Shown in pieces: positions 1,547 to 62,847 of a stretch of DNA of 64,000 bases; within the stretch, counting starts at the first letter, position 1; every line of letters starts with the position of its first letter. Origin of the DNA: Halisarca cf. caerulea. Lineage: Eukaryota > Porifera > Demospongiae > Chondrillida > Halisarcidae. Position numbers and translations under genes: made by a program. The stretch covers positions 10,182,801-10,246,800 of the forward strand of contig CAUJGJ010000397.1 in assembly GCA_963170055.1 (NCBI GenBank). The letters are read 5' to 3'. The notes beneath the pieces were generated by a model that was given only the letters and a program-made list of their open reading frames with translations, ran no database searches and was not told the origin of the DNA.

Positions 1547-4321
1547 TCAGTGCTTCAAGTTTTGTTCTCTTCTCTTCTTTAGACTCTTCCTCCCTAAAGG
1601 TCTCCCTCGCTTGCTTGCTGCCGTTAACTCATTGGTGCTTTGTTGTCTTGCCCGTTTCCTGAACCACTGCTTCCTTGCGCTTGAACTGATTGCCTCATGC
1701 CAGAGAGAATGGCAATCTCGCCCGGGAACCTGACACAAGGAAGGTTCGAACGGACAGTTCGGGCAAAAGCCTTGACTTTTGTTGGTGTGGCAGTAAGCAC
1801 ACTGATTCTTCTTCCCATCAAGCCTAAATCTACTTCCATGCATGATAGTGAAGTCCTCTGCCTCCAGTATGGTCCTGCCAAACTTGTTCACGATTTCTTG
1901 CACAAGACCATCCAGGAATGTAGTCTGTGACACTCTCTTCAACCCCGACTCCATTCTCTTCCAATTATACAGAATACAGGAATTCGTAGCTACAATCTCC
2001 AGCAAATGGAAGAAGAACGTCTTCCAGTATCTCACCGTCTTCCTCAAGACCCGGTTATAGCTGATGTACTGGTCCGACTTGTCAACTCCTCCCATATATG
2101 AGTTGTACATCTGTACTGCGATGGGGATTGATACATCTTGTGTGTGTGACACGCCAGTGGACACCTTCACTCTCCGCTTCACCGTACTGCTGCTGTGTCC
2201 TGGGTATCCCGTTGACATCACTGTGACACACTTACTATCCTTCCACACAATGTACACAGTCCTGGAACCCCTGGGCCTAATGTAGTATCCCGTACCCCGT
2301 GGTACATGTGTCTTCTCCAAAGCCTCCTTCAACAATTTAACTTCTGAAGGAACTCCCATCCGATTTGTCTTCACAGTGCCTGTTGCGGTAATTCCATTCT
2401 CAAGGAGGTCGGAAAACAGGGAAGAGCTAGAATAAAAATTGTCGCAGTAAACTTCGTATCCCTGAAAGTGAAACGGAGCAGTCAGTTTGGCTACAACATC
2501 ATAGCCAAGTCCCTTCCCTGATGGAGCATCGTTGGTGCCACAGTAGATATCGAAGTCTACTGTATAGCCAGTGGGGTCAGCTAAAATCCAGTACTTATAC
2601 CCCCACTTAGTTGGCTTGTTCCGTATGTACTGGCGAAACTGTGTCCTTGCCTTGCTCCTCACCATACGTTCGTCAACTGAAAGCTGTTGGAGTGGTTGAT
2701 ACAGGTCGAGACACTTCTTCTTGATGGCATTGTGTAGTGGAAGAATCTTCCTCAGCTTGTGGGACGACAACTCAGTCTCTTCTTCTTCAGTTACAACATG
2801 GAGGAAAGCACCTATCGCCTCAAAACGATCACGAGAGAGCATGCGGAGGAGTTGTGGCAAGTGCTGGCTACTCTTCTTGCTCCAAGCTAAACGATAGTTG
2901 CGTACGGAGTTGATGCTAAGCAGTACAAGGCAACCAAGGTAGCGCATCATTTCATCAGGTGTGATGGGATGTCGTTTGAATCTTTTATACATATTCGGCT
3001 TCTTGGTACGGTTCTTGTCAGCATAGTCATTCGTGGATTTGACCAATCGCTCAAGGACAGAATCATCAATAAAGAGCTGGACCAGATCCAGCCCTGATAC
3101 CTGATCATCAGCACCCTCGGGAAGATGTGGACCGGGAACTCTGAGAGGTTGGAATATGTCTGCTGCTATGTAGTCGGAGTCCACCTGGGATATAGGTGCC
3201 GAACATGCTGGAACCCCCTCAATGCTCTGACTATTACTCAGTTCACTATTGCCTAGACTTCTGCCCCTACCTGCGCCACGGCCTCTACCCAGACCACCTC
3301 TGCCACGACCTCTACCCCGACCACCTCTGCCACGACCTCTACCCCGACCACCTCTGCCACTACCTCTTCCCTGACCACCTCTGCCACTACCTACACCACG
3401 ACTTGTGCTACGACCACCTCTGCCACGACTTCTGCCACGGTTGCTGCCACGTCCGCCTCTGGAACCACCTTCGCTACATGTACTGCTGTTATCAGAAGAC
3501 TTGTCATTGTGGCTAATATCATCATCATTACCATCACCAATCAAGCCTTGCTCATTGTCACCCTCATTTCCTCCATCATCACCCATCAAGCCTTGCTCAT
3601 TGTCACCCTCATGTCCTCCGTCATCACCCATCAAGCCTTGCTCATTGTCACCCTCATGTCCTCCGTCATCATCCATCAAGCCTTGCTCATTGTCACTCTC
3701 ATGTCCCCTATCATCACCCGTCAAGCATTGCTCATCGTCTCCCTCATGTCCTCCATCATCATCCATCAAGCCTTGCTCATTGTCACCCTCATTTCCAGTG
3801 CCACCATCCATCAAGCCTCGTGCAATGTCGTCCTCCAAAACATTCTCACCACCATGCACCAGACTTTCCCCTTCATCACCTCCATTACCCTCTTGTATTA
3901 CATGGTTATCCACTTCTGAATCAGCAAAATCCCCCCCTTCATTATCATCATCCCATTCATTTTCAGTCTCATCACTTCTTACTATGTTGCTTTCCCCACT
4001 ACTTGTTTCACCTTCTTCTTCAATTGACTCGTGTTCACTTCCCGCTGAATAATCGCTGCTACTTCTGTCTCCTGACCTTGTGCCAACTGCACAGTTACTG
4101 CTTGTTTGCTCTTCCTGCAGCTGAACGTTCTGCACCGTCGCCAAAACTCCGAATTTTGCTCTTTTGGCGATCGAGTTTTCATCTGATTCGATACCACCCA
4201 ACTGCAATTCATCCTCTGACCCTTCGGTAGATGTTGCGCTGCTTTTACTGTCCGTACAGAAGTAAGCGAGAACCTCTTCCGTTGAATAAAACCGTTGGCG
4301 AGTATCTTCTTTGGAAGCCAT
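1547..4321 (-). CDS. piggyBac transposase, intact
   Basis: A 924-codon open frame for a piggyBac-family DDE transposase (DDE_Tnp_1_7 type), which cuts and pastes the surrounding element at TTAA. From the N-terminus: a short head; an acidic region with about seven 15-residue repeats (GDDGGHEGDNEQGLM-like, roughly residues 160-265); an Arg/Gly-rich stretch (about 285-360); then the catalytic core. The acidic triad is visible as SVDERM (D about 550), VYCDNFY (D about 627) and GGVDKSDQY (D about 747, with a further D three residues on). The C-terminus has a cysteine-rich CxxC-x6-CxxC finger (about 865-905) and a basic tail. It is longer than the classical 594-residue protein because of the N-terminal repeats. 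The start at 4321 is the first ATG inside the right terminus. No stops or frameshifts. Confidence 0.95.
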   Translation of the reverse strand: MASKEDTRQRFYSTEEVLAYFCTDSKSSATSTEGSEDELQLGGIESDENSIAKRAKFGVLATVQNVQLQEEQTSSNCAVGTRSGDRSSSDYSAGSEHESIEEEGETSSGESNIVRSDETENEWDDDNEGGDFADSEVDNHVIQEGNGGDEGESLVHGGENVLEDDIARGLMDGGTGNEGDNEQGLMDDDGGHEGDDEQCLTGDDRGHESDNEQGLMDDDGGHEGDNEQGLMGDDGGHEGDNEQGLMGDDGGNEGDNEQGLIGDGNDDDISHNDKSSDNSSTCSEGGSRGGRGSNRGRSRGRGGRSTSRGVGSGRGGQGRGSGRGGRGRGRGRGGRGRGRGRGGLGRGRGAGRGRSLGNSELSNSQSIEGVPACSAPISQVDSDYIAADIFQPLRVPGPHLPEGADDQVSGLDLVQLFIDDSVLERLVKSTNDYADKNRTKKPNMYKRFKRHPITPDEMMRYLGCLVLLSINSVRNYRLAWSKKSSQHLPQLLRMLSRDRFEAIGAFLHVVTEEEETELSSHKLRKILPLHNAIKKKCLDLYQPLQQLSVDERMVRSKARTQFRQYIRNKPTKWGYKYWILADPTGYTVDFDIYCGTNDAPSGKGLGYDVVAKLTAPFHFQGYEVYCDNFYSSSSLFSDLLENGITATGTVKTNRMGVPSEVKLLKEALEKTHVPRGTGYYIRPRGSRTVYIVWKDSKCVTVMSTGYPGHSSSTVKRRVKVSTGVSHTQDVSIPIAVQMYNSYMGGVDKSDQYISYNRVLRKTVRYWKTFFFHLLEIVATNSCILYNWKRMESGLKRVSQTTFLDGLVQEIVNKFGRTILEAEDFTIMHGSRFRLDGKKNQCAYCHTNKSQGFCPNCPFEPSLCQVPGRDCHSLWHEAISSSARKQWFRKRARQQSTNELTAASKRGRPLGRKSLKKRREQNLKH
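3535..3835 (-). repeat. 45-bp tandem repeat inside piggyBac transposase
   Basis: About seven in-frame 45-bp units encode the acidic GGHEGDNEQGLM-type repeat. Units differ by a few substitutions, some silent, so the array expanded before the latest changes. The low-complexity opposite strand gives spurious Ser/Leu-rich open frames. Confidence 0.85.
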
Positions 4322-4555
4322 ATCCGTAATTTTACGAAATTATGCGGAAATAATGGTTCTTCACTCGGTGAATCGGGAGCGTTTTTCAAAAGCGGTTTCC
4401 TCAGCCGTTTTGCTACTATTTTGTTAAAGCTTTGCATCGAAGATAAGTGTTACTAATGTATTATCAGCTTGTGTAAATGATTTATCGTTAGCTATGCCGC
4501 TATCGTAGGAATAAAATCTGGAAGTTGTGGAACTGTAGTTCCCTATTTGTATAGG

Positions 4556-8920: not shown

Positions 8921-10872
8921 TTATGGGCCATCGAAACGCTCATCTTGGTTAGTGTGGGAAATATCTGTTGAGCTTGTGCTGCTGCGTCGGGATGTTATAT
9001 ATCCCCAGTTAACATCCAAAGGTTGACAGTGAGTGTGGCTTGGAGGGGTGCTTTGCCAGCCAACTGTTGTAGTGGGAAGATGCCAATGGATTTGGACTGG
9101 AGATGCATTTGGCATTTGAGGTGGCTGCTGGTTGAAAGAATGAAATAGTGCACTTTGTATGCTAAACTTGACCATGCGTTTGGCATTACAATCAGTAATT
9201 GATTTTAGTTCACATGCCACATATTCACCAAATATATCATCAGCATCTCTTGTTGATGATCCAGTCTTCGTTGCATTTGCACTTTGTTCCATGCAATCAA
9301 TGACCTTTAGTAAAAGTTAATCCTCATTATCTTGTACTCTCTTGGGAGGCCTTTTTCCTTTGCTACCTGTTGGCCTTTTTGTGGACTGAGTTTCTTCAGA
9401 GCTCTTTGACTCTGAACAACTAGGCTCAAGTTGGTCATCAACAAGAATTTCTTCATTGTCTTCCTAAAAGATATAGCAACATATAATATAAAAATAAATA
9501 GAATTGCTCAATATGTATTAATACAACCTGCAATTCACTTTCTATAGGTACCTACCCAGGACAGAAGAAGAGTGGGTGACCATTGCGAACAGTTTTGACT
9601 CACAGTGGCAGTTCCCACAATGCATAGGAGTAATGGATGGGAAACACGTTCTTATAAAGCCCCCACCAAATAGTGGATCATTCTTCTTTAACTACAAGCA
9701 CAGTTTTAGTATTGTGCTGTTAGCTCTAGTTGATGCTGACTACAAGTTCTTGTATGTGGATGTGGGATGCAATGCCAGAGTAGCTGATGGTGGTGTGTTC
9801 AAAAATAGTACACTCTTCACCGCCCTGGAAGAAAACAAACTGGCACTACCATCTCCTAAACCCATAGTGGAAAATGGACGATCAGTCTCCTACATGATTG
9901 TGGCCGATGATGCCTTTCCACTTAAAGAGTACTTACAAAAGCCCTACAGCCAATTGGGCTTAACCAAACAAAGGCACATTTACAATTACAGATTGAGCCA
10001 AGCTCGCAGAATTGTAGAAAATGCCTTCGGAATATTATCCAATAGATTCAGAGTGTTTATGCCACCAATGGGATTGTCGCCAGAAAAAGTTGAGATGATT
10101 GTGATTGCATGTTGCATGCTTCATAACTTCTTGCATTCAAGGTCAAACAACACCTATACACCACCCGGAAGTCTGGACACTGAGAGTGATGTTACCCATG
10201 CAGTAACACTGGGTCAGTGGCAACATGGACCACAACCGCAGGGTCTAATTGCAATCGAAAGACAAGGCAGCAATCACCATTCAAATGCAGCCAAAGAAAC
10301 AAGAGACTACTTGTGCAGCTATTTCAACTCTGATGTCGGGTTGGTATCATGGCAAGATGCTATGGAATAAGCATGTAGTCAAATTTTATTAAATACCCAT
10401 AAGGTCTGTGGACTTGTGTCGGTGACCTAAGTATAGTGGTGTGTATTATCATTTGCCTGAATTATTTACCTCCAAATTGGATTGAGTGGACCGTGCTGTA
10501 GTATGGTCATCCAAGAAAGTCAAGCTATCATAGTGCCGCCATTTGCTTTTGTACAACTCATCTGTACCTGCCCCTGATTTTGATGTGTTAGTCTTCTGTC
10601 TTTCACTGGAATACTGGGTGTGAAGGCTTCTAATCTTCTTCTTTACTTCATTCACTGAAACAGAGGGATAGAATAGGAGCACTCATCAGTATAGACACTA
10701 CTACATTCACGTTAATAGCACAAGATTGAGTCTGCACTTGTTATCTTACCTGAAAATCCTGTTAAAGCAGAAATTTCAGTAAGGGCTTTACTTCTTTCAT
10801 CCCTGTTATGATTACCCTTATGCTTAACATTGTATAAGTAGGGTTTGTCCTCATAGAAGTCGATTAAAGCCG
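8921..10872 (-). pseudogene. Harbinger MADF/BESS second protein, broken
   Basis: Myb/SANT-like MADF DNA-binding partner of the Harbinger transposase. The MADF domain is split over exons at about 10750-10872 (LIDFYEDKPYLYN) and 10480-10667 (VKKKIRSLHTQYSSER...SKWRHYDSLTFLDD). A Ser/Lys-rich linker exon (about 9320-9465) leads into a BESS-like motif (DDIFGEYVACELKSI...MVKFSIQSALF) at about 9120-9245. A TAA at 9317-9319 lies in frame between the linker and the BESS part, so the reading frame is closed unless that stretch is spliced out. The gene encloses the last transposase exon on the opposite strand. Confidence 0.72.
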
Positions 10873-23951: not shown

Positions 23952-25309
23952 TTAGAACGGCAATTTCCTGGAATGACAACTTGAATACCCCATAGTATAC
24001 AATTTCTTTCCACTGATAATTCTTCCCTCTACATTCTTCATGGTACCTAACTCAGGTCTAAACACTTCCTTGTATCTCGTCAGAAGGGACTGTAGTGCAA
24101 CAGATGGAGCTCCCTGCCAATTTAATGAAATTTGTGCAAGCCCCTTCCAATCCAACCGAATTTGAGACAACCAGTCCCGACCCAGTAAGCATGGTCCATC
24201 TCCCTCGACCACCAACAATTTCAATTTCGCTTGTTGAGCCCCATACGTGACATCCACTGTCATCTCTCCCATACTAGCCAGCTGCTCTGTGGAGTAAGTG
24301 CGCAACACAACTGCAAAATCCCTCAACTTTTCTCCTGGAAATAGCTGCTGATGCTGATTTGAGGACATCACTGTTCGTGCAGCTCCTGTATTGATCTCCA
24401 TGTCCACAACCTTCCCATTGATAGTGACAGGCACTACTATGGGCTGCACACCTCTTGAGCCTATATGAAAAAATGGTTCTGGAGATGAGCTTCTTTCTTT
24501 CTCTGTGTATAAGTGATATTGTTGACTTTCGAACTTAACCCTCCCTGACTTGTGGCAAACTTTGGCCAGATGCCCCACTTTGTGGGAACTGTGACAAACC
24601 ATATCCTTGTGCCTGCATTTGTTTGCCTTGTGCTTAGGATTTCCACACCTAAAGCACAGCTGCTGCTGAATTGGCTGACCTCTTCTAATTACTCTGGGAC
24701 TCAAAGTTCCCGCAGTATGGCTTCCCCCACTTTTGGATGGTTTCGGTGCAGACACTTGTTGCACCGTTAACTCTGAGTTGTTCAGCTGATGCATATTCTT
24801 CTCAGCTGCTTCAATGGCCAATGCAATTTCTAATGCCTTGTCTAGAGTAAGATCGGGTTCAGCCAATAGTCGTTGCTGAGCTCCTTGACTACGCATTCCG
24901 AAGAGTGGTCGATCCCGCAGCGCCTCTTCCATATGCTGACTGAAGTTGCAGTTCCGTACCAGCTTTTTTAATTCAGCCACGTACTCTGTTACGGATTCTT
25001 CTCCCCATTGAGTCCTACGGTGAAAATGAAATCTCTCAATCCCAAGCCAGTGATTACCACTGGCTTGGGATTGAAATGTGCCTTTAAGGCCGCTGTCAGC
25101 TGATCATACGTCTTTTCGTTCGGCTTCTCTGGAGCTAACACATTTCTTAAAATCCCGTAAATCTTACTTCCGATGACACTTAGTAGTACTCCCACCTTTT
25201 TGTCGTCTTTAATACTGTTGGCGTCGATAAACAGTTGCATTCTTTCGAGATACGCCTCGATGGTTTCATCTTCGGACTTGAATTCCTGTATTTTCCCTAG
25301 CGTGGCCAT
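23952..25309 (-). pseudogene. Gypsy gag-protease region
   Basis: Starts MATLGKIQEF at 25309. Gag is broken after FNPKP by a 17-bp inverted duplication (25036-25074), then resumes (VAELKKLVRNC...). A CxxC zinc knuckle (CFRCGNPKHKANKC) and a degenerate second one follow. The aspartic protease region is recognisable around MEINTGAARTVMSS, where the expected catalytic D of the D-[TS]-G motif reads N, so this protease should be inactive. The ending shows the LLGRDWL block found downstream of the protease flap. Confidence 0.85.
25036..25074. repeat. Perfect 17-bp-arm hairpin in gag
   Basis: TCAATCCCAAGCCAGTG, loop ATTAC, and the exact reverse complement. Its left arm matches no expected gag coding sequence, whereas its right arm does, so the left arm is probably a templated inverted copy that shifted the frame. 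Confidence 0.9.
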
Positions 25310-25700: not shown

Positions 25701-26196
25701 GTGCATATGCATGCAAGACTATAATAATAATATATACCAAGTTGTGTGTATATAGTATATACATGCATGCAATTATTGAAAAATCATCTTTGTATGTGTA
25801 TATTATATAATTACATACATGCAGTTACAATCGCTGACATGCCAAACATTAATATTAGTGCAATATAATATTATACTCTGCATGATGCATCATAAATGAG
25901 CTAAGCCTTATAACACAAAAATCCAAACATATAAATACATGCAATAATTGATTTCCACAGATTATATAAGCAAAAAAAAATAATAAAGTATAATATAGGG
26001 GCATATCCACCCTGCACTGCTGAAATCACTTATTCTACTAGAGGTACTACAACCAAAACAGTTTGGTTCTCAAGCTTGGTCACACAATGGGCACAACGAC
26101 TTTTCAAAAATTGAAGTGGCAAAAATATCTCATATTGGTCATGATGCCAAACTTGGGCTGGCTTACCAATTCTGTTTTTGGATTAGTGCGGCTTAA

Positions 26197-26222
26197 ACGT
26201 AGACCGCGAGTATAAAAGGGGC
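26197..26222 (+). promoter_or_regulatory. K1 left terminus containing a TATA box
   Basis: The terminal repeat runs directly into GAGTATAAAAGGGGCG (26208-26223): a full TATA box about 340 bp before the transposase ATG at 26553. The opposite terminus has TTTTAAAAGG at the same place, ahead of the convergent gene. Confidence 0.5.
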
Positions 26223-26552
26223 GTTGCTCCTCATCGAAACACGTTTTCAGGAAAAAAATGGCGCAGCATCAGCATTATAACAACTGTACGGGCACTTAGT
26301 AACAGCTACCCATACAAATGAGGGCTTTTATGCAGCTCTTACATATAGAAACACAAAAAGAATATTGGCATACAAATCTATACAAATTCTTATCGCACTT
26401 GACACGATCAATTCGCTTAGAATCGTCGAATTCTTCCAAAATGCTTTGATTGGTACTGATCGACGCTTATGCTGGTGCTAATTCGCAAATTCCTCAATCG
26501 ATAGTAGAAAACTTAAGACAATGTTCGACAAGAATGTTACTATTAGAACGGT

Positions 26553-29483
26553 ATGGCGGCGAAACGTCCATGGGTCTCGTGCTACGCCCAAGATAGCGAG
26601 GACAGAGATCGCATATCGAGACGTCTTGAGGATATCAAAAGGACGTTACCACTGAATTCATCCATGAGGGACGTCTTTCTACTGCTGCTGGATTTTTATG
26701 AGGAAAAGTCTGGCTCTCCTACGTATACGCGTTTGCAGCAAGATCAGAACAGACAAATAACCATTCCCAATCCGGACCTAGACAACCAGTTGTTCCTATG
26801 CGAGCAGCAACAGTTGGAGGTCCTGGTCAGTGAGTCTGCTTCACTCTGCATAAAGTGTAAAGCTGTGTCATGGAAGCTGAAGGACTGCATCATGCGAGGG
26901 CATGTCCTCACAGGTAACATAGTCTGCTCCAAATGTCAACACACAAGGAGATGGTTGAGCTCTTCAATCATTGGAGATCGCTATGCAGTCAATGCAAGGT
27001 TGGTTGAATTGATACATTTGTAGCATAATAATGAGATAACTACGAACATGAAAGAGATAAAGCTTCACTTTTCCCCCGGCATAATCTGCAGAATGGTGCA
27101 TGCATTTACATCATGTGGACTGCTTCCGCAGCAGTACAAGTCCATGGGCAAGGCTGCTCGAATGGGGTTTGTGAACGACCATTACATTGCAGGAAGTAAG
27201 AGTCAGGGTGCTGATGATACATCAATGTATATGCATACATATTAGGCTCTTGTTTGATACTGTTCATATCTCCATTGTAGTGTACCATACACAACGTTAC
27301 ATGGACATAGTGAAGCAGCAGGCTATGTGCTCTATGGAGAGAGCAATAATTGAATGTTGACAGGAGAAAGAAGGGGCAGAAGTAAGTATCCAAGATGTTG
27401 TACCATATACGTATGTGCTGGTATGCACACAGTTGTTATGTACCTTCAATGTGATCTTTGTAGTGGGTCATATGCGATGCACGCCATGATTCCACTAGTA
27501 ATGCGTACCACACGACAGTGCCCTGTCTCATGGGCACAACCCATCGGATAGCTGCTGTACAGACACTATCCAGGGAGACACACCGTGTGGCACAAACCCG
27601 GGAAGTGGATACCACAATGCTTGTATTAGAGCAAGCCAAAGCCAGAGGTATGCACGTAATAATACTATCAAATTTTATAAAATGAAAGTGTGAATGTGGT
27701 GCATGTGATTGAATTGCTTTGGCATGCATCCTCATGTAGGACTGGACATAAATGAAATAGCACATGACACAAATATTCCGCTGACAAGAAAGATCACAGA
27801 AAAGGGCTACATAAACAGCTATGATACATGGCATGGTAGGTACATATGACTCTTTCTATTGCAGCAGCTATATGTATGTCATGGACAATATTACACATGC
27901 ATGCTGCAGGTATCTTGTCCATGTTGTCATAATTAATGTTCTGTCTGCGTATATATATTATTGTAGGAACCATAATGCACAAACTAACTATAGCGTTTTG
28001 TGTTTTGTATGCAATCAGTGCCTTGTATTTCTCAGTTGAATCTATATTGAACAGTATCTATTTTTGCATGTTTTATTATTATTGAATCTGTGTATTACTT
28101 CATTTTTGTACAAATTCTTTCACTGGGTGCCTTGTAAAGTAGCCCCTGGCTAAAGGCCTCCCCAGTTTAAATAAGTTACCTGACCTGACCTGACCTGACC
28201 TAACTAAAGGAGTAGCCAATGCCCTCAAGAGCATTACCGCTGGTCCAAAGAGAGACATGGAAAAGAAGTGGTTTTCCCAGCTGAGTGACAAACGTCAGTG
28301 TCATCATCATACCTATGACTATCTACATGTGATCTTTACTGGGTAATTTAAATGTTTCAGGTGCTAGCACGAAGCGACACGCATATTGGGCAATGGCCAA
28401 TTGCGAGGGATCTGGAGCACGTCTAAGGGAACTGCTGTTGAATATTGTTGAACACTACAAGGTGACAAATTCCAAATCCTTACCTATGCATGCAATATAG
28501 TTACACATGCATTGCAAGTGAATATGCTTGATCATCAGGTTTCACTATTATTATACTGATTTATAGGGAAATCACACAGCCTGCCATGGATCGTCTTACT
28601 ACAAGCGACATGAATACATACCAGCCAGGACGGTCATCACTGATGAGAGAGCAGCAGAGGTCTTTGCCAACAAGATTAAGTCTCTCGCAGTGTACAGATA
28701 TGCGGAGAGCTATGCCAGAGTGAGTGTACATACAGGATGCACTATAAAACTAGTTACTACAGCACACATGCATTTGCATAATCCGCTTCTTCCCAACAGT
28801 GTAGGGACACCTTTTGGGTTGAATCGTTCAACCACGCTCTACTTATCTACCTCCCAAAGCGGATTCATTTCGGTGACATGACATATGACATGCGGATGAA
28901 CTTTGCTGTCATGGACTGGGTGAGTAAATACATGCATGTTGAGATTCATGACAGAAGCCTCGTGATGACTTTATAATATTCTATTATATGTTTAATAACA
29001 GAATGAGAATGTGGACAGGGAGGTAACAAGCCAGCATGTTGTGGTTGACATAAGGAGACCCAATCGGCGCACTCCAATGAAGAGCAGAAAGACAAAGACT
29101 TATGGTTTCCGCTGGGCAGTCTGGAGGAGTTGGTGCCATCAAGTCCTTGAATCTGGGCTAGCAGACACCTCTGTGGCCGAGGAGTCTGCATGCCATGGGT
29201 TAGTCAAATATGGTGATTACAGTTCTTGTGTGTGCAAAATGATTTATGCAGATTGTGTAAACTCGACATTTGTATGTATATAGGATTGTGGACGAAAACA
29301 ATCCCTTGGCGGACATATTTCACTCAGAGCCGCTTATTTATGAGGAAGATGACATGGAAATTGTGAGTATTCTCACATACCATAACCATGCATTTGTTTT
29401 TTTGGTATACACATAACTTATGTTACGTATTTTATGATTATGTTTTTGCTGTATTCATATACATGCAGGACGTGGACTGCTAG
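26553..29483 (+). pseudogene. K1 transposase (12 exons, one nonsense codon)
   Basis: Exons read by eye: 26553-26998, 27092-27195, 27281-27381, 27464-27647, 27740-27835, 28210-28293, 28361-28461, 28567-28719, 28800-28919, 29002-29198, 29284-29362, 29469-29483. All have GT-AG ends and the phases agree, totalling 560 codons. A CIKCKAVSWKLKDC...CSKCQH zinc cluster lies near residues 105-140. The putative catalytic residues are CDARHDS (D about 222), AHDTN (D about 287) followed by YDTWH (a D-x2-H signature of the Kolobok/hAT/P group), and FWVESFNH (E about 431). The C-terminus reads NFAVMDWNENVDRE. The single defect is TGA at 27358-27360 in exon 3. It is related to the K2 transposase but clearly another family. 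Confidence 0.75.
28115..28201 (+). mobile_element. 5'-truncated LINE 3' tail in K1 intron
   Basis: GTAGCCCCTGGCTAAAGGC...CCCAGTTTAAATAAG followed by repeats of CTGACC. It matches the end of the LINE at 62770-62847 (GTAGCCATTGGCTAAAGGC...CCCAGATAAAATAAG, then ACCTAACC). Only about 85 bp were copied. It makes this intron 374 bp, against 70-110 bp for most others in the gene. Confidence 0.8.
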
Positions 29484-29613
29484 GATTCTGCCCAGTGGAT
29501 TTTTATTGAACACAACAATACCGACATGCAACATACACACATGTTGCATGGTCAGTCAGAATTCAATCATGGCAGAACTAGCTAAATTCAGTGATGTGCA
29601 TCAATGTCAGTGT

Positions 29614-30117
29614 TCAATAAAAATCTGGACTCCATTTGTGATCAGTATATGGGATGCCTGGCGGATTTGGAAATCTTCGGCGTACTTCCTGCAACATTCA
29701 AAGCAGAATTGAAACTCAAAGATAATATTATAATATACAGTGGTGTGGAGTGGTAGTGACAGGCTCAAGACATACTTGTTTAATGCACTCTGGGATAATA
29801 TCCCGTGGTGATCTGCCATGTCCAGTCACCCTCTTCCTCTCCTTGTACGGAGCAAAATCCCACAATCCCAGTTTCCTCAAGTATGTCCAGAGCTTCCTAT
29901 ATATCCTGTATCGCTTAGCAGCATTGCCAGGGTTGGCAGGAGAGGCTCCCTTGACACACTCAGGGAGATGTGCCTGATTGCTGATGCATGGGTCACAGTA
30001 GCAGAAGTAACAAACTTCTGTTGATGCTGGCCCACCACCGAGAAAATGCGTGGTGTTGTTAGGCCTTCTAGAAGGCGGTAAAGTGTCCCTTGTTGGTTCC
30101 CTTACTCTTCGCGCCAT
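29614..30117 (-). CDS. K1 convergent protein, P2X7-ballast-like domain
   Basis: Two exons, 29776-30117 and 29614-29688 (donor GTATGT, acceptor TTGCAG), giving 138 residues. A basic head comes first, then a cysteine group (VCYFCYCDPC), KRYRIYRKLWTYLRKLGLW, and IIPECIKQ joined across the intron to EVRRRFPNPPGIPYTDHKW. The order (Cys cluster, Y/R-rich helix, R-x-x-x-P-x-C, then IR/VR-x-x-FP and an aromatic end) is that of the cytoplasmic ballast domain of P2X7 receptors and free-standing invertebrate homologues. There is no receptor part and no membrane segment. The gene runs toward the transposase gene and ends 131 bp from its stop. Role unknown; perhaps a zinc- or nucleotide-binding partner of the transposase. 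Confidence 0.68.
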
Positions 30118-33100
30118 AATCGCTCTATACAGCAAACCGCATCAGTTTCTGGACGTCTAGCAGCGATTATATCAAAAAATCGCCGTGTGGCACGAAATTC
30201 GAACGGTCCGAAGTGTTTGATAAAGATTCGGCGACATACAATCTATACTCTTCTTCGCGCTTTTTTTTCAAATTTGAAAACGTCCGCCATGTTTTCAGGA
30301 TCCTCATCCCCTTTTTATACCTGTGCGAAGTTGTGCGGATGCAAAAACGCGTGACCCGCACACGGAACGCACACATTCCTAAACGCGTTGCCTTTTAAAA
30401 TCGCGGTCTACGTTTAAACCACTCCACTACAGCCACCAGCAAGTGATCTTCAGCGGGTTTCGATGTCTCCGTGGCTACGTTGAAATACACTTTGATGAAG
30501 TGGGTGATTTTGACAGGGCGTAACCTTGAACTTGGATGTGAATCATCTACAGGTGTAGTGGGTTGAGCACCAAAGATGACCTGCTCCCACATGGCCATGG
30601 CGATGAACGGGCGCGAGCCGGATACATGCCTGGACTTACTGGAGCCAAAAGTACAACCTTTGAGGCTAATAGAAGCATATTGTACATGGATGGAGTTTGC
30701 AGTTACTAATCCACACTCTGTAGTATTGAGTTTGTCATACAGTTCAACCAAATACGCAGCATCATCACTATCAAGTACTCCTCTGGTTGCAACATCAGGG
30801 ATAACCACATCAGCATGGGAAGGATCATCTTCAACCAGTGATGAATCCCTCAGGGATCCAACCATACACTGGTCCGTACGACAAACATCCTTGAAATCAT
30901 TGACAAATTCCGATGGAAAATCAAAGGAAAACACTACATTGTCTGTAAGAAATCTCTTCAATAACTGACTCTCAATTTCTCGGGAGTTTGTTGTTTGGCT
31001 TCCCAAAATTCCATTGTAGCGTTCAAAAGAAAAAAGCCAAAAACCAAAAACCGGGCCATAGTCTTCAACAGCTTCCTTTAGATGACAGTGCAGATGTATG
31101 TTGGGTGTGATGAATGAATTACCATAGATATGTTGTGAGCGGCGACAGAATTGAAGCAGGAGGGCATCAGAGAGGGCAATGTCCTCAGAAGACAACTGAC
31201 ACTTGCATAGAATGCGACAGGCAAGGACAAATTGGCGCCAACATTCCAGCTGCTCGAGTGGAATAATTCCATACAATGCAGGAATTGAAAAGTACATAAT
31301 CCAATTCTTAAATTGATCGGCTGTGAAGCTTGAAAATCCGGAAACAATCTTATGTGGGATACGACCAACATCAGATGGTACAACCATGCTATCGACAGAA
31401 GCTTGAACCAGGGAATATTGGCTCCTACGGATAGTTTTATTATCCAACCAAAACTGTAGCATGTGCTTTCCAGTTCCCAAGAACAAGTTGTGCATGGGGT
31501 CTATAGCTAGCATCCTCGGTGCATCAAAATATGGTAACTACAACAAAGCCGAATAGCGACATCCAAGTGATGACTCCAGAGTGGTTTGCTCAATTTTTGT
31601 TGTAGCTTGTGCTATTCTCTGTACACGATCCCTGTGCTCTCTGTTTGTCCTAGGTAACCAGCTACTCCGACCAAAACCACTGTAGTCCATGGATCCCACC
31701 TTACCTGGAAAAGGCTTGAAGCATTTAGAACAACCAAGTTTCGCAGAATGACCTACAATGCCACACAGTTTTCGTCCAGCTGGGAGATCACAGGCCACGC
31801 ATAAACATGCTCCTCGCACAACTATTTGTGATGGAGATGAACCTACGTTTAGCTTGACACCAGTCCAAAGATCATTCAGCTCTTCAACAATTGGCTCAAG
31901 GTAAGAATTAATATCGTGTCGAGGTTCTGATGGACCTGGTAAAATGCTAACCAAAATAACATTGTTTTGTTTGAAACGCACAGCACGAGGAAGGTTCATT
32001 ATGGTTAGATAAACAGCCCCTACAGAGTATGTTAAATGCTTATAGGGTTGAAACCAATCTACATTTAGCATAAGGCCTAAACCAAGAGAATCCTTGCAGG
32101 ATAAGAAAGGTTTCCCATCCACAACTTGGAAAGACTCCCAGATTTTCCCATCATAAACATCTGATTTGATACCCAGAACAGATACCCTAGACTTCCACTG
32201 CTGGCACAAATCAACAAAACCAGGGCACATGAGAAAATGTTGAAAGGATGAAAGAATAGGCTTGTACGGATACGTTTTGATAGGGACAAGATTTTTAGCA
32301 CCCGACGACAACTTCACAGACTTAAGTAGCAAGGAGCCACAGGGGGTTCTTTTATTTAAGTGTGGATGGTTGGGGTAGCGAACAAATGAACATCGTTTGC
32401 TAGAATTGTATCCTCCAGAAAAAATTACACAATCATTAAAACGATAAACTTTGTGGCAGCTGGGACATATCACAAATTTTGTGAAGGTCGTTTGGTGACT
32501 TGATGACTTCCGTAAACTATACAGTGAAGAAGGAAATGCAGCAGCAAATTTGGCTACAAAAAAATCTGAAAATTGGCCCATGACCGAGAAAAATACTTTT
32601 AAGAATCGTATAATAGCAGTTATAACTGCATCAGATGTAGAATGAACAGCTTGCAAAAGTAGTAAAAATCCCGTCAGCCAGATAACTAATGATTTGATAG
32701 CCAAATCGGATTTGGAAGTGTTGCGGTCTTCCAAAGAGGGAGCCGGTGGGTCCAGTAGTTCCGAATCAGATGTCTCATCAACGTCAATGCCATGACTGTC
32801 CTCCCAGATTTCCTCTATATCACTATAGACTGGAGCTATTTAAAAGAATGGGATATCAAAATAGCATGATAGTATGGCAGAATATTCACCGTTGTAACAA
32901 AAAGGTGAATATGTATACGTACATACTATGCATGCATGAACGTATACTGCTAACTGCATAAAGTGAACTATATAAGTGAGGGTCTGATCTTTGATCACAA
33001 CTAGTAATATGTAAAACTCAATTTAACAGCAACGCTCTCTTTCTGCACAACTCATAGCAACTCAATTAAGAGTTAACATCCTTAAGCATGCTGCATAATT

Positions 33101-33514
33101 ACTTCAGTAACACTGTCACATAACATACCTTCAGGAAGAGCTTCATGATCAGAGTCACAGTCATCTCCCCAGCACAGTCAGTACATTCATTCGATTCACC
33201 ACTATTCTGGCAGGGAGGGTCATCATCAGCATTTAAAGAGGAATCCATGTCCACAGGGAAATCTAGTATAAGCCGGGTTGAATGAAGCACACGTGCATAT
33301 TAAAATGACAAGGAGGTATAATATTATCTTACTTCAGCAAACAACACATGCAGCCACTATGTATGCAATTTAAATTGCCCCATTTACTGAGCCGACTATA
33401 CTGCAAATGTTATGTTAAACTTTAACTTGTACTATTTGGTAAGAATATGGACGACCGTATGTTATTATTATGGTTATCACTTCTGAATTAGTAAAATTAA
33501 AGGCAGGTATAAAT

Positions 33515-33530
33515 GGGGGGGGGGGGGGGG
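33515..33530 (+). repeat. G16 tract
   Basis: Sixteen consecutive G in the first intron of the EnSpm transposase gene. It could form a quadruplex or be a slippage tract; its length is likely uncertain in the assembly. Confidence 0.9.
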
Positions 33531-33938
33531 ACGGGACATCACAGCAAAACACACTGGGGCAAAGCACGGCAGCCCGAATAGCTATTAGGCACAACTGACT
33601 CAAGTTGACTCGATTCAAATTTATTGCTAACCTGGGGCACACAAGTCATTCTGCCATTCGGCATCTGAGTCTGTACTCATCCAAATCCGATCCACATTGG
33701 AGTCACTCTGGTATGGAAAAAGACTCTTGTGTTTCTTGCGGGTTTTTTCACTCACATAACGATCGCAATGCTCGCAGAACACGTCAGGATTTCTCCTCTT
33801 TGAAGAAGATGGATATTGTTCAAGGCGATACTGGAGTAATGACAACTGTCTCGTAGAAGTTGATGGCTTAGAAGTGTCGTCAGGGTTCTTCACTGCAGAA
33901 AAACTGGCATTATTCACTGGAGGCGGCTGGTCGGCCAT

Positions 33939-34140
33939 TTTCGTATGTCACTCGTGCTTGCGAAAACACTAATTTTAGCAATGTAGTCTAAAAATAGCTT
34001 TAATCGTCTATACTGAAAATAGACAATGGGTGTGAACATCACCAAATAAAGTTCGCACGTGATCCAAAAAGCGGGCAATTTGAGTTTCAACGCGTTGCTC
34101 TCTACTGGTACGAGCTCTTGTTCAATCACAATCTTTGATC
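33939..34140. promoter_or_regulatory. Bidirectional promoter of EnSpm 1
   Basis: The transposase start (ATG at 33938, minus) and the second gene start (ATG at 34141, plus) are 202 bp apart and point away from each other, so both promoters must lie here. The sequence is AT-rich in the middle with no perfect TATA box. Confidence 0.6.
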
Positions 34141-34367
34141 ATGGACGGTTGGAGTGAGGAGGACTTGTTTCCATCTGATGAGGATGACACTAGAGAACCC
34201 ATCTCTGAAAGGGAATATTACAAGTTAATCGCAAGTGGGGCCAGGCGACCACCTAAAGGCTATGTGCTACAAACGAGTGACTTGACATCCTCAGAATCTG
34301 ACAAGGAGCCACCACAAAAAAGGCCCGTGAGAAAGTGTCCAGCTAAATCAAAGAGAGAAAACTTTAA

Positions 34368-34386
34368 AGGGACAGTATCGCCGATT
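34368..34386 (+). repeat. K2 left terminal inverted repeat
   Basis: AGGGACAGTATCGCCGATT, exactly matched by the reverse complement at 38976-38994. TTAA lies outside both ends. Confidence 0.92.
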
Positions 34387-34540
34387 TGCGCACGCGTAGG
34401 ATATTTCCGTATACACGCTCCAAATTGGACCAATCAGAATAAGGATAGAGAATTTGTTACAACTTCTCTATCTCGTACTCGATTCGCTGTCAGATGAAAA
34501 TGGCGGTCGATCGTTGTCCACTCGTGCGAAACGCTCGATA

Positions 34541-37500
34541 ATGGAACAGAACGTTTGCCCGCTCATAGGGCGTTCTAGAAGAGGAGGAAATGCGTGTAAC
34601 CCTGCTGCTCCACCACTTCAATATAATTACAAGGTAATTCGCCTGAAAGACGCTACTTATGCGGAACTTCGCCAACTAAAGGTGGTAATCGGTACCAAAA
34701 CAGACGATGAGGTGGTCAAGTACTTACTTCGGAATCAACATCGTAATGACAAGTAAGTCTTTGAGATGTAACCTGTGCGTTGTTTATATTATTTTGGTAT
34801 ATCTCAAATTTAATGCTCCGTAGACCAACGATTGAAACGGCTAGCTTTCCCCTGCCAGCACCGCCCCAACAAGATTCACGTTTCGATATTTCGAGGCGTG
34901 GGCTTCCTGCTAACCTCATGACTTCCACTCCAATAAGACGAAGTGGTCAACCGAGCGAGATCCGCGCTATGCGTAGCGAAGCTGGGGCAATCCAAAGGGT
35001 AGCTGACAACAAGTAAGTGTGTCTCAACATGAATGACATGAATTTCGGTATATTCCACTGTGTATGCAATGTTAAACTTTTTGCTATGATCCGCAGCACC
35101 ACCATGGGGAGTATGGAGCTGCTCTGCGGTGAATCCCCTCCGCCTATGCCTTGTACCAGTGACAGAGACCCTGGAGAGCAAACCACAAGTGAAGGAACTC
35201 ATAAGGTGGCTGTCAACAAGTGAGTGTCTCAATTTGTACATATTCATGTATTTGGTGTTCAATTTTTTGTAACATTGTTAGTACCACGATGATGAGTATG
35301 GAGCTACTCTGTGGCGAACCCCCATCCCCTATGCCTTCCGATGAAGAGGATGGAGACCCTGGAGAGTGCAAGGATTTCAGTGTTTATTGTGCCCCATCTG
35401 TTGTGGATGAGACATTAAATGACAGTGGCTCTGAAGAAAGTGTTTATTCAAGGTACATGAGACAGCAATTATGTTTTTGATGTCATGCATAGATCATATT
35501 TTACCTGAACTAGCTGTATACCACAGTAATGCTGACGAGCTCAACAGTGATGACAATGACGATGACGATGATCATGTGCAACAGATGTCTGACCGTCATA
35601 GTGTAACTGAAAGAGTTGAGTCTATATCAGTAGGTTAGTGAATGTGCTGGCTATGAATTTCCTCTTGTTACTACTTGCTTCCTTGTCCATGGCATGCATT
35701 GTATTTAGGCAGTGAGAAGATATTAAGTGCCATCCAGCTGGTAGAACCCCAGACAAAGTACTTCATTGTGCATGGAGGACAGCTCCTACAGCTTCTGGGT
35801 AGTTGTTGTAGAAAGCCTGGATGTACATCAACTGTTGTGGTCGATCAACGAAACGTTGGAATGGTGGTGATACTAACAGCCGTGTGTAGTGTGGGTCATG
35901 AATTCATGTGGGCATCGTCTCCTCAGCAACAATTGCACAGTGGTGCTTTTATCTATACCTCAAATTACTTCCTACCATCATCAATATTGCTGTCAGGTAA
36001 CAGTTTTGCTAAGATATCTCTTATGTTCAGGTATATATATGTTTCACATTCTGCCACAGACTTCCTGTGTTATACACTTCATAACTGTAAAAATTATGTT
36101 TGTTGTATTGTATAGGTTTGCCAACATCCTCTTTGTAAGCAAACCTAGCTATTACCGGTATCAGAAACAACTGTACATTCCTGCCATCCAGTCAGCATGG
36201 GATGCACACCAACAAGATGTATTCAGGAAGGTGCAGTCACCAGTAATTGTCTGTGGAGATGGACGATGTGATTCTCCTGGAAATTCAGCTAAGTTCTGTA
36301 CATATACATTGATGGACTCATCCAGTGGACTTGTCCTCAATGTGGACACAGTTGACAAGAGGGAAGTTCAGGGGAAGTCACCCAACATGGAGAGAGAAGG
36401 GCTGAGAAGATGTCTGTCACAAGTACAGCAACATTGCAGTGTGACAGAGATAGCAACTGATGCTTCAACGTCTGTTGCTAAAGTTATAGGTACTAAGTTA
36501 ATTGTCATGATTGTACGCATGGAAATCATCTTAGATTAGCCTTTTAAATTAGTACTTGTTTTATAATATGTAGCTACTGAGTTTCAGAATGTTGAACATT
36601 CAATGGACATCTGGCATAAGTCCAAAAAGTTACGCGCTGCTCTACTGGAGGTATGTTTGAGTTGAAGTCGTGAGTGGGTGATGATTTTTAAACAGACTTT
36701 ATCAATTTGTGTAGGCTGGAAAGACAAAGTCCAACATAAAGATTGTGAAATGGACTGATTCAATTGTGAACCATTTTTGGTGGTGCTGCAAAATATGTGA
36801 TGGAGAAGTGGAAACATTGAAGGTATTGACACTATATACCAGACTGCACGAGTCCTTGTACAAAGTGTATGTTCAAAATTGAATGCCTTAATTTATATTA
36901 TAGAGGAAGTGGGAAGGTGTTCTACATCATGTATGTGGAGAACATGATTGGATCATGGACAGCTGCGAACATGATGCTTTGGAAGAGCCTTGCAGGGACA
37001 GATACGGAAATACATTAGAGTATTTCTCCAAAGGTGACTCCGCCCACACCACCTTGCAAGATGTTGTTCTCAACACGAGGTGGATGAGAAGTCTTAAATA
37101 CTATACAAAGTTCAGGTATGCATGGTAACCATTATTGCTCATTATTTTTGTGATGATTGTCTAAAAGTTCATTTGCATCATGCATACATTTCAGGCACAC
37201 TGGATCACTGGAAATGTTCCACAGCTTATTGTTGATGTACGCACCAAAACGTATTGCTTTTCAGTAAGTTTACATCCATTTTTGTAAGTGTGCAACCAAG
37301 TGTTTTTTGTGTCAAGTTCATGTTACTAATATATCCACAGGAATGATGCTTACCATACACGGATAATCCTAGCAGCCTTGGATCATAACCACCACAAGGA
37401 TACGGCACAGGAATGTACCCAGGGTGGCACTTACCTACATCATCGTAGGTGGAGGAAGACCACGAAAAGGTGGGATGTGGTACCAGTGATGGAGAAAAAA

Positions 37501-37883
37501 TCTTACACATACATTAGGTAAGCAAGTCATGCAAGGTGTAAAACTTGCAACAATGGATAATGACAAATGCTTGTTTATTTATTTCTCTGTGCAGTGATAT
37601 CCAAGTACTAATCTTTAACATCCGTACTGCTTTTCAAGGGAAACTATCTGCAAGTGGATTTATTGCTGCCAGTCATCCAGCAACAATTCAATCCACAATT
37701 GCTGCAGTTCCACCACCTCCAACAGATGTACTTCTTCTTGACAAACAGAGTAGGTTTTAGCGTATTTCAAGACTGTCGCAATTCATGCATCATGTTGATG
37801 AACTAACATAATTGATTTCAGAATCTATTGATTCAGTATTAGGAATGGCTTTGAAGCTGGTTCAATACACTAGTACGGCCTAA
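34541..37883 (+). CDS. K2 transposase (14 exons, frame intact)
   Basis: Model: 34541-34752, 34824-35012, 35097-35219, 35282-35452, 35527-35633, 35709-36030, 36116-36489, 36574-36650, 36715-36822, 36904-37115, 37195-37263, 37341-37517, 37595-37749, 37822-37883. All introns are GT-AG and the sum is 2,358 nt (785 residues) with no stop. Exons 3 and 4 are duplicates (TTM-SMELLCGE-P-PMP in each). A cysteine/His cluster (CCRKPGC...CSVGHEF) precedes the RNase H-like core: CGDGRCDSPGNSAKF (D about 423), ATDAST (D about 489), MDIWHKSKK (D-x2-H, about 511), WWCCKICDG, and TGSLEMFHS (E about 637). TTAA target, AGGG ends and the D-x2-H box fit the Kolobok superfamily; no THAP finger is present. Start chosen as the first ATG giving a spliceable exon. 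Confidence 0.8.
35097..35452 (+). repeat. Tandem exon duplication in K2 transposase
   Basis: Exon 3 (35097-35219) and exon 4 (35282-35452) begin with almost the same sequence, coding for NTTMxSMELLCGExPxPMP, and share the upstream intron phase. Exon 4 carries extra 3' sequence. A recent local duplication of one exon is the simplest reading. Confidence 0.82.
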
Positions 37884-38566
37884 AACCCATGTACTGGCCC
37901 GTTGCTGAAGGAAAGTGCCTTCTAATTTGCTTCACAACACATGAAGGAGCCACCTTCCTGTTGCCTCTACCTAAGTGCTTGTGTGCCCATAAAATATATT
38001 GTCTATATGCTGCCTTCCTATAGCTTCGGTCAGAGAAGTCTGCTGGGTTAGCCCTGATGTCCGCCCTGTTGAGGATAGCCACACCAAGGACATGTGGATC
38101 CAATACTATCTTGTAAAAGATATTGTAGGCCGTGACACACCGACTTCGACCACAGCATTTCTCCTCCACTGGCTGTGGCATTGGTATGCACAGACCACAT
38201 TTACACCACGCAGGACATTCTGGTGGTTGGGGAGGGTGTGGTTCCTGAGGTGGAGCTGTATGCAAGAGGCATTCAGCTAATGAAACTCCCCCTTGTCCCG
38301 GCAACAGCCGGACACATAGCTGTCTACATTGTTCTGGTGGTAGTTGTTCAACATGAGCCTACAAGCCACAACGATAAAAATTATTCTTATCAAAACTCTT
38401 CAAATCACAGAGCTGAATAAGCTGTCAGGCGCTTTCTTACTTCTATTTCTCTTACTTCGCGTTGCAAGTCGACGTCCGAATCAGCGTTTCTGGTGGGTAA
38501 TCTGGGGCCTGATCTGGTAGGGGCTCGAACAGCTAATAGGGGGCCGATAAGATCACGATCGGCCAT
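37870..38566 (-). CDS. K2 convergent protein, P2X7-ballast-like domain
   Basis: Exons 38441-38566 and 37870-38358 (donor GTAAGA, acceptor TTGTAG, phase 0), 204 residues. The N-terminus is acidic/basic with an LPPEQCRQLCVRLL helix. The second exon encodes CPAWCKCGLC-x10-EEKCCGRSRC, YNIFYKIVLDPHVLGVAILNR, YRKAAYRQYILW, GNRKVAPSCVVKQIRRHFP and a QYMGF ending. This closely follows the ballast (cytoplasmic C-terminal) domain of P2X7 receptors: the zinc cysteines, the Y-R-x-A-Y-R helix and the PSCVV-x-x-IR-x-x-FP end. No channel part is encoded here. The start at 38566 is the first ATG of the exon. Its stop overlaps the last transposase codons on the other strand. A role in transposition is inferred only from linkage. 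Confidence 0.82.
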
Positions 38567-39140
38567 TGATGACTCGCTTTCGTTTAATTCTACTTCGCCC
38601 CGGTTCGTGCAGCATCTTGTTCCCGTCACTCTGCACGAGCAAAGAGGCGTACAGAATGCCTTTGCTGTTTTGCAAGGGTAGCTGCCGCGTCCAGACGCTC
38701 TAGCACACTTGCCATTACAAGAACAGAATACGATCTACATGAGCACGGATTGGTAGGTTATGAACACTACGCAGGTATAAAAACAGACAAATTGCGAGTA
38801 TTGCTATATTATAGAAGGCTTACACTTTCGTCGGCTGAGGAGTCCATGGCAATAACAATCGAAACCATCCAAACAACCGTCGTATAGAGTATCCATGGTA
38901 TAACTATCGAACGCATTCGCGTAGTAGTTACGCGAGTGCGTTCGGGTAATGTGTGACGTAACAGCAATATTGCGTAATCGGCGATACTGTCCCTTTAAGA
39001 GAAAATCACGAAGTAATGGCTCCAAAGTCTCTACTACTGAGCGCGAGTTCTAATAAATTCATTCACTATCTGAGGCTACTAATTGTTAAAGGTTGTCTTT
39101 GCTAACATTTTTTAACTATCCTATTATGTTCCCCTTATAG

Positions 39141-61012: not shown

Positions 61013-61039
61013 AAGTAACTGATTCGCAACTATCCAGTT

Positions 61040-62847
61040 TTTAATCATCATGGCATTAGGTCAACATTAAGTGTTAGCTCTGCCACTGGTGTTGACAACA
61101 TCCCTTCTCGTTCCCTCAAAGCTTCTCGGTCTGTAATATGTTATCTCCCCGCATCTATCCTAAATGCCTCCATCTCTTCCTCTACCTTCCCTCACTCCTG
61201 GAAATGCAGTTCTATTAGACCACTCCACAAAGGTGGAGATCGAAACTGCCTTACAAACTACCGACCCATTTCCATTCTTCCAGCTTGTAGTAAACTTTTA
61301 GAAAAACATGTCAAAGAGCAACTTTCCAACCACTTAGAATCAAATTCTCTTCTTCATTCTCATCAATCTGGTTTTCGCTCTAATCACTCAACTCAATCAC
61401 TTCTTCTCTACTGTACAGACAGATGGTATAAAGCACTAGATAATAAGGAACTCACTGCTGTCCTATTCCTAGATGTGTCAAAGGCCTTTGACACCGTAAA
61501 CCATCCACTTCTTCTCTCCAAACTCTCGAAACTTGGTATTGCATCCTCTGCCCTTTCTTGGTTTCAGTCCTATATCTCCGACCACACCCAAGTTACTTTT
61601 CTCTCTGGCTCCACCTCCTCTCCTGGCTTCCCTACTTCTGGTGTTCCACAGGGCTCCGTTCTTGGGCCTACACTCTTCTCCGCCTTCATAAATGACCTTC
61701 CCAAAGTTCTGCCCGATGACTCAACTCTTCTCTTTGCAGATGATACCACCATCTTTATCTCTGGAAAGGATCCTCAGCTTCTAAATCACTCACTACAATC
61801 ATGCCTTGATCTAGCAAACAATTGGATGGAAGACAATGGATTCATACTAAATGTAAAAAAGTCCAAATGTATGCTCATTCACTCTCCTAGAATAAAAGGG
61901 ACCACTCCACTCCTTCACATTCATCTTGGTGGCACAAAAATTGACCAGGTTTCCACTTTTAAGTTTCTCGGCATCCACATTAATGATACTCTAACATGGA
62001 ACAGTCATATTGATCATCTCATAGGCAAAGTCTCCCGTAGTGTAAACCTTCTCAGGCGTCTTTCTTGGTTCCTTCCTTGTTCTGTTCTTACTCTGTACCT
62101 TAAATCTTATATCCTACCCTGCCTTGATTACTGTGATGTTGTATGGAAAAGTTGCACTAAAAATGACTCCCAAAACTCCAAACCCTCTTCAACTATGCTT
62201 GTAGAATTGCCCTTCATTGTCCTCGGTTGCACTCTTCTTCTGCTCTATGGTCTGAACTTGGTCTGACTCCTCTTGATGTTCGCAGAAATCTCCACCAGGC
62301 TGAAATGATGTACAAGTGTTTCAATTCTCTCGCTCCTCCATATCTCTCCTCCCTCTTTCAACCCCCTTCTCATTCCTATCAAACTCGTACTCGACACCTA
62401 CCAAATCTTCCTCATGTCAATACTTCTTTTGGTCAACGTGCTTTCAGCTACTCTGGCCTCTCTCTTTGGCGTTCCATACCATTATCACTACGATCAGCTG
62501 AATCTGAAACCACCTTTTCAAGACTTATTCGCACTATGCAACAAACAGGATTACTATTATAATAGTAGTTTGCATGTCCTGCATGATAAACTGATTTGCC
62601 ATATTTCTATTTAAATCTTCCTTAGACTACTTACCCTTGATCTACTGATACTTTATTTGCATGTCCTTTATTTTAATTCATTGCATTGCCAATTTGATTC
62701 ACATAAGACTTTTTAATTCATATTTTCTTCCTTTTCTATCCTTTTTTATCTCTGTTTTTGCTTTTTGTATCTTTTCCTGGGCGCCTAGAATAGTAGCCAT
62801 TGGCTAAAGGCACTCCCAGATAAAATAAGCTTACCCAACCTAACCTA
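61040..62847 (+). mobile_element. 5'-truncated CR1/Jockey-type LINE
   Basis: The RT domain begins abruptly, so the endonuclease and ORF1 are lost. The 3' UTR (62566-62847) ends GGCTAAAGGC-x-CTCCCAGATAAAATAAG with a tail of ACCTAACC-type repeats rather than poly(A). A tail-only copy of the same family lies at 28115-28201. Inserted just after the stop of the element 2 BEN-like gene. Confidence 0.88.
61049..62565 (+). pseudogene. LINE reverse transcriptase remnant
   Basis: Carries RT blocks in order: VDNIPSRSLK, WKCSSIRPLHKGGD, NYRPISILPACSKLLEK, HQSGFRSNHST, AVLFLDVSKAFDTV, GVPQGSVLGPTLF, LLFADDTTIF (catalytic DD) and FKFLGIHI. After the thumb one base is missing in an A run near 62168; the frame continues as LGLTPLDVRRN...YLSSLF and ends at 62565. 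The LDVSKAFD and FADD boxes and the C-terminal LW-x-SIP block are those of CR1/Jockey-group LINEs. The 5' truncation and frameshift make it inactive. Confidence 0.9.

Follow-up and report, generated by a model that had tools for sequence, protein, structure and literature searches.

The 64,000-nucleotide window analyzed here, a stretch of the genome assembly of the sponge Halisarca cf. caerulea (GCA_963170055.1, contig CAUJGJ010000397.1), contains two DNA transposons, K1 and K2, that are flanked by TTAA target-site duplications and that each carry a plus-strand transposase gene and, converging on it from the minus strand, a small second gene (Table 1). The terminal inverted repeats are exact in both elements, 13 bp in K1 (ACGTAGACCGCGA) and 19 bp in K2 (AGGGACAGTATCGCCGATT), and show no evident resemblance to one another, while the spliced transposases are 24% identical (with K2 taken without its N-terminal part). 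An earlier sequence-only reading of this stretch had given the bounds of both elements, their TTAA flanks and their unrelated terminal repeats exactly to the base, had called the transposases strongly diverged, as the identity value bears out, and had placed a small two-exon gene converging on each of them, with which our gene readings agree. The second gene of K1, with a GT-AG intron, encodes 138 amino acids and that of K2 encodes 199, and both predicted proteins are basic (isoelectric points 9.85 and 9.23). Their intron positions differ, and a two-exon structure is therefore not a character that the two genes share. The C-terminal motif described in the sequence-only reading, running from P-x-C to an arginine pair and FP, does end both proteins. 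Its C-terminal half, in the form (I/V)R..(F/Y)P-x4-8-Y, occurs in the six frames of the window solely at the two second genes; the whole motif is readable in a single frame in K2 alone, because in K1 it is split by the intron.

Table 1. Coordinates of the K1 and K2 elements and their genes within the 64-kb window.
Feature	Positions	Strand	Details
TTAA target-site duplication left of K1	26193..26196		flank reading; TTAA also starts related copies
K1 element, Kolobok-like lineage, ACGT...ACGT ends	26197..30413		4217 bp; inverted-repeat reading
K1 transposase	26553..29483	+	11 exons (GT-AG reading), two stops in frame
K1 second gene exon 2, with EVRRRFPNPPGIPY	29614..29688	-	
K1 second gene exon 1, short KolX relative	29776..30117	-	
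TTAA target-site duplication right of K1	30414..30417		
TTAA target-site duplication left of K2	34364..34367		
K2 element, Kol0-type Kolobok, AGGG...CCCT ends	34368..38994		4627 bp; inverted-repeat reading
K2 transposase	34541..37760	+	13 exons (GT-AG reading), open
KolX gene of K2 exon 2, P2X7 cytoplasmic ballast domain (cysteines of clusters 1, 2 and 3 present)	37870..38358	-	PF20478 6.2e-29
KolX gene of K2 exon 1	38456..38566	-	
TTAA target-site duplication right of K2	38995..38998		

K2 shows these features of a Kol0 Kolobok element: TTAA, RR...YY ends (here AG...CT), a DDE transposase having C/DxxH and a zinc finger before the catalytic E, and a KolX gene. Two copy pairs related to K2 likewise begin with AGGG directly after TTAA. 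The K2 transposase has no Pfam match to a THAP domain up to E 0.1, which we do not take to exclude the element from the lineage because this domain is described as usual, not universal, in the group (PMC6004289). The second gene of K2 is KolX, a full homologue of the cytoplasmic ballast domain of the P2X7 receptor. Its second exon alone matches Pfam P2RX7_C (PF20478) at 6.2e-29, and a profile built from five of the assembly's KolX proteins retrieves four distinct P2X7 sequences from the PDB (9.8e-20 to 4.1e-17). The ballast, or ZCD, is defined by the clusters PxWCxCx2C, LCCRx3GxC and PSC...IRx2(F/Y)P (PMC7016195), and the K2 protein shares with the ZCD of P2X7 and Nanor described there the cysteines of all three, reading PAWCKCGLC in cluster 1, KCCGRSRC in cluster 2 (with a spacing shorter than the consensus) and APSCVVKQIRRHFP in cluster 3. 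The zinc cysteines that had been recognized in K2 are thus confirmed. In the assembly, KolX relatives account for 45 + 47 matches, which after merging make 52 places, some of them partial. The insertion of K2 breaks an open plus-strand frame (MDGWSEEDLFPSDEDD...) into the segments 34140-34367 and 38995-39060. A search of the assembly for empty sites of K1 and K2, made with their joined flanks, matched solely the two flanks themselves.

That the P2X7 ballast derives from KolX is already known. In the text of Kojima and Bao (2022, PMC9587614), KolX of the Kol0 Kolobok lineage is identified with the P2X7 cytoplasmic ballast, and P2X7 is concluded to have arisen when a P2X4-like gene fused with KolX; the suggestion of the sequence-only reading that the ballast came from such elements is therefore right, and has been in print since 2022. 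Sponges are among the hosts reported in that text. K2 resembles the Kol0 elements described there in its TTAA duplication, AG...CT ends, Kolobok transposase and KolX with ballast domain, and is one more family of the lineage, with no difference in kind found from what the text describes. The ballast domain had been reported from Amphimedon and other animals by Rump et al. (2020, PMC7016195), in a paper whose main text does not contain the stem "transpos". The transposase of the element itself may account for the "two markers" to which the legend of its Figure 6 ascribes an ancient linkage with ballast genes across animals. The part of the present analysis that appears to be new is K1, a lineage with a short KolX relative.

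The K1 transposase contains D, D, DTWH, a zinc finger and E in the transposase alignment, where it shares with the Kol0 transposases both catalytic D residues, DxWH, the C/H zinc finger and the E together with its surroundings. By tblastn it reaches Kol0 transposases, down to 5.6e-9 (89 loci), and it has relatives in Halichondria, Ephydatia, Amphimedon and the coral Oculina, which by themselves would make a sponge the probable source of the window. The TTAA target and the C/DxxH with zinc finger before E are those of Kolobok; however, the ends of K1 and its relatives are AC...GT, where the Kolobok end rule is 5'-RR...YY-3' (PMC9587614, section 3), and for this reason K1 is called Kolobok-like and not filed as Kolobok. 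It is not a piggyBac element, having no DDE_Tnp_1_7 match up to E 0.1. In a tree of 22 transposases, for which 14 of 52 database proteins were taken, the K1-type and Kol0-type sequences split with full support and long branches; the tree is midpoint-rooted and has no outgroup, and with this sampling it does not tell which of the two stands nearer to other Kolobok lineages. The two types also differ in front of their second genes, with TTAAACGT found upstream in 21 of 30 K1-type loci (two of which, L085 and L089, are one place) and 0/30 Kol0-type loci, and TTAAAGGG upstream of KolX in 19/30 Kol0-type and 0/30 K1-type loci. Like the lineages KolobokP, KolobokE, KolobokD and KolobokH described in the text of PMC9587614, K1 is a TTAA element in which a DDE transposase is joined by an accessory protein. 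In those lineages the accessory is a nuclease or a RecQ helicase, whereas in K1 it is a short KolX relative, and K1 is further set apart by its AC...GT ends and, as judged by eye, by having no CCHC finger after the first D.

K1 seems to have inserted at the 3′ end of a Tnp2/EnSpm-like frame, because the frame at 30395-31537 runs into its inverted repeat; Tnp2/EnSpm-like transposase frames occupy 30395-32839 on the minus strand (Transposase_21, 6.6e-20). Within K1, a 16-bp inverted repeat at 29502 and 29616 supplies both convergent genes with a poly(A) signal, one each, and the messages of the two would overlap. This arrangement was dropped as a feature of the lineage, since among the loci read it was present only in K1 and its close relative L061.

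Relatives of the K1 second gene give 54 matches in the assembly, merged to 33 places, and 24 relatives, several partial, are found in the protein database. Because the assembly holds relatives of both, the K1 and K2 genes are not chance reading frames. The K1 family conserves VCxxCxCxPC near the N-terminus, a KRYRLYRKFW helix, IPWC(I/V)K and (V/I)RxRFPNP..PY. It is not cysteine-poor, with CxxCxCxxC and PxC; four cysteines are near-invariant (15/15, 14/15, 15/15 and 16/16, among 16 aligned sequences that include some close copies) and a fifth is present in 10/15. Set against the ZCD definition (PMC7016195), the K1 protein has cluster 3, as P-x-C(I/V)Kx(V/I)RxRFPNP..PY, and part of cluster 1, as CxxCxCxxC without the tryptophan and with the middle cysteine of CxC variable (10/15). 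Cluster 2 (LCCRx3GxC) and the helices after it, that is, the middle of the ballast domain, are absent.

We read the K1 protein, on its sequence features, as a diverged and shortened relative of KolX and not as a ballast domain. The homology is proposed because of a profile-profile match that shuffling does not reproduce. A comparison of seven K1-family with five KolX sequences gave a probability of 64.7%, and with 16 and nine sequences hhalign gave 83.1% and a score of 40.8, which none of 1000 column-shuffled profiles reached (best 25.5; reversed profile 14.6). Without the P2X7 sequences the match stands at 85.5%. A lenient full-length alignment shows the same order of parts in the K1 family and KolX: cysteine motif, YR helix, IP-x-C, IR..FP and PY. 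The description of both second genes as P2X7-ballast-like in the sequence-only reading accordingly holds for K2, with its P2RX7_C match, and finds no support for K1, whose protein does not look like a ballast domain in its own right; the profile search it had proposed divides in the same way, at 6.2e-29 for the K2 protein and with no Pfam match for that of K1. Purifying selection appears to act on the K1-type second genes, the ratio of nonsynonymous to synonymous substitution (dN/dS) being near 0.11: three diverged pairs gave 0.109, 0.109 and 0.105, at saturated dS values of 1.5-2.8. Among six recent pairs, dN/dS was 0.29 in one, dS was 0 in three and dN was 0 in the other two, and dS was undefined in one further pair (13 pairs were requested, of which three, with sequence not extracted, were not computed). 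A K1 lineage with a short KolX relative was not found in the literature searched, which did not cover the figures and supplement of PMC9587614 or the Repbase entries.

In each lineage, the transposase and the second gene are arranged convergently, and this pairing is retained in most copies and never swapped. Matches in the assembly were merged by eye into 32 K1-type transposase, 40 Kol0-type transposase, 33 K1-type second-gene and 52 KolX entries, some entries being pieces of one element; for the K1-type transposase at least 166 matches were listed, from which five weak ones coinciding with Kol0 transposases were excluded. Among the matches listed, a convergent K1-type gene lies within 1.5 kb of 25 of the 32 K1-type transposase fragments and within 8 kb of 31. 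The corresponding counts for KolX beside the Kol0-type fragments are 30 and 32 of 40. Crossed pairs, of a K1-type transposase with KolX or the reverse, number 0/32 (among the matches listed) and 0/40, and one pair of transposase and second gene is not convergent. An absence of the second gene from most copies is thus not borne out, and the conservation claimed in the sequence-only reading stands. Counted from the other side, a transposase lies within 8 kb of at least 29 of the 33 K1-type second genes and of 32 of the 52 KolX places. The remaining 20 KolX places have no transposase match within that distance, and 12 of these carry stops, as expected of dead non-autonomous copies. The lone KolX loci L011 and L013 resemble the L008/L010 family and are perhaps non-autonomous derivatives that keep KolX alone.

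We lean, by a modest degree, toward the explanation that K2 is a Kol0 Kolobok with KolX, that K1 represents a Kolobok-like lineage of its own, with a shortened KolX relative, and that the second proteins are accessory transposition factors. A role in transposition is likely for the second genes. As small, basic, zinc-type proteins, their products could be components of the transpososome, in which the conserved C-terminal module (P-x-C, arginine helix and FP) would bind nucleic acid, the transposase or both, and they would assist in setting up or completing TTAA-specific cut-and-paste. Like P2X7, full KolX would carry two zinc ions, and the short form probably one, given its four near-invariant cysteines. 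PIF/Harbinger transposons encode a transposase and a Myb-like DNA-binding helper; the two-gene logic is alike, and the proteins are unrelated to those of K1 and K2. The tail of P2X7 is, as published, a captured copy of full KolX.

Several results weigh against this explanation. DNA binding, zinc binding and a need for the gene in transposition are predictions; KolX is absent within 8 kb of eight of the 40 Kol0-type fragments; the dS values behind the ratios near 0.11 are saturated; and the divergence of the second genes correlates weakly with that of the transposases (r 0.20, p 0.10, n=7 representatives), so that co-divergence of the two, which is not significant in this sample, was dropped. 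The homology of the two second proteins has its own difficulties. The profile alignment spans just 25-55 columns, and its probability falls to 59.1% without three bridging sequences. Neither the K1 protein nor its relatives match Pfam, apart from one relative with a DUF at E 0.15, and against PDB sequences the K1 family has no significant match (best E 0.52, unrelated). A model of the K1 relative P0008 (predicted local distance difference test, pLDDT, 76.9; predicted template modeling score, pTM, 0.66) found no match to the PDB in Foldseek, a negative to which no weight can be assigned because the single-sequence control model of the K2 KolX was too poor to serve (pLDDT 47.2); against viral models it found two matches, at E 5 and 7.5. 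The K1 gene could be unrelated to KolX, with the P-x-C...R..FP tail arising by convergence in lineages that took up different helper genes, and this would agree with the missing sequence and fold matches, the short alignment and the differing intron positions. That none of 1000 shuffles reaches the profile score, that the order of parts is the same in the lenient alignment and that the convergent position is the same all speak for common descent, and we regard independent acquisition as quite improbable.

A regulatory function is harder to set aside. The second genes could repress transposition or block silencing by the host, being retained because they tune copy number, and both the separate convergent transcription unit and the conservation beside most transposases fit such regulators equally well; a repressor role fits nearly as well as a helper role. 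Yet a repressor would give its own copy no direct benefit, while the gene is seldom absent (present with 31/32 fragments among the matches listed, and with 32/40), and a dN/dS near 0.11 across families would also argue for a helper. On these grounds we consider regulation unlikely. That the second gene is a useless passenger spread by hitchhiking, as might be suggested by the 20/52 KolX places that lack a transposase match within 8 kb, we hold to be very improbable: the same 31/32 and 32/40 retention and the low dN/dS between families oppose it, and 12 of the 20 lone places carry stops, as dead non-autonomous copies do.

Some piggyBac families have a protein like the C-terminal part of KolX, according to one sentence in PMC9587614. 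As described there, these families resemble K1 in their TTAA target and in a KolX-like C-terminus without most of the cysteines, and differ from it in that the K1 transposase has no piggyBac domain. Transposons of the piggyBac type are very abundant in the assembly, with at least 119 matches (from 507 first-look candidates, of which 116 were scored) merged to 116 places. Only one of the 116 listed places lies within 3 kb of any of the 33 K1-type or 52 KolX places, and it lies between pieces of a K1-type transposase, that is, inserted in a K1-type element. An association of KolX with piggyBac in this assembly was accordingly rejected, with the limit that a KolX-like gene too weak for the searches would be missed. 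The window itself contains a piggyBac frame at 1547-4339 (minus strand), uninterrupted over 930 amino acids and with a domain match of 1.6e-72, which is its third TTAA-type element. Other transposon-related frames are a DDE_Tnp_4 (Harbinger-like) frame at 9522-10370 (plus), a gag/aspartyl protease frame at 23952-25103 (minus) and a reverse transcriptase frame at 61019-62266 (plus).

With K1 as another TTAA lineage that carries a KolX-like protein, we tentatively put forward a broader possibility, of which we remain doubtful: KolX and its short relatives could be one ancient family of second proteins of TTAA-targeting transposons, found in at least two deeply split Kolobok-like lineages whose ends are unrelated and in some piggyBac elements, the piggyBac part resting on the one sentence in PMC9587614. 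In such a family the C-terminal P-x-C/arginine/FP module would be the working core, and the rest of the ballast fold an elaboration either added later or lost. According to a 2021 review (PMC8410900), the part that the GDP- and zinc-binding sites play in P2X7 has still to be established. A second, shorter version of KolX, retained in a lineage whose ends differ, narrows the functional question to a small shared module, and this module may be a hint to the original purpose of the ballast.

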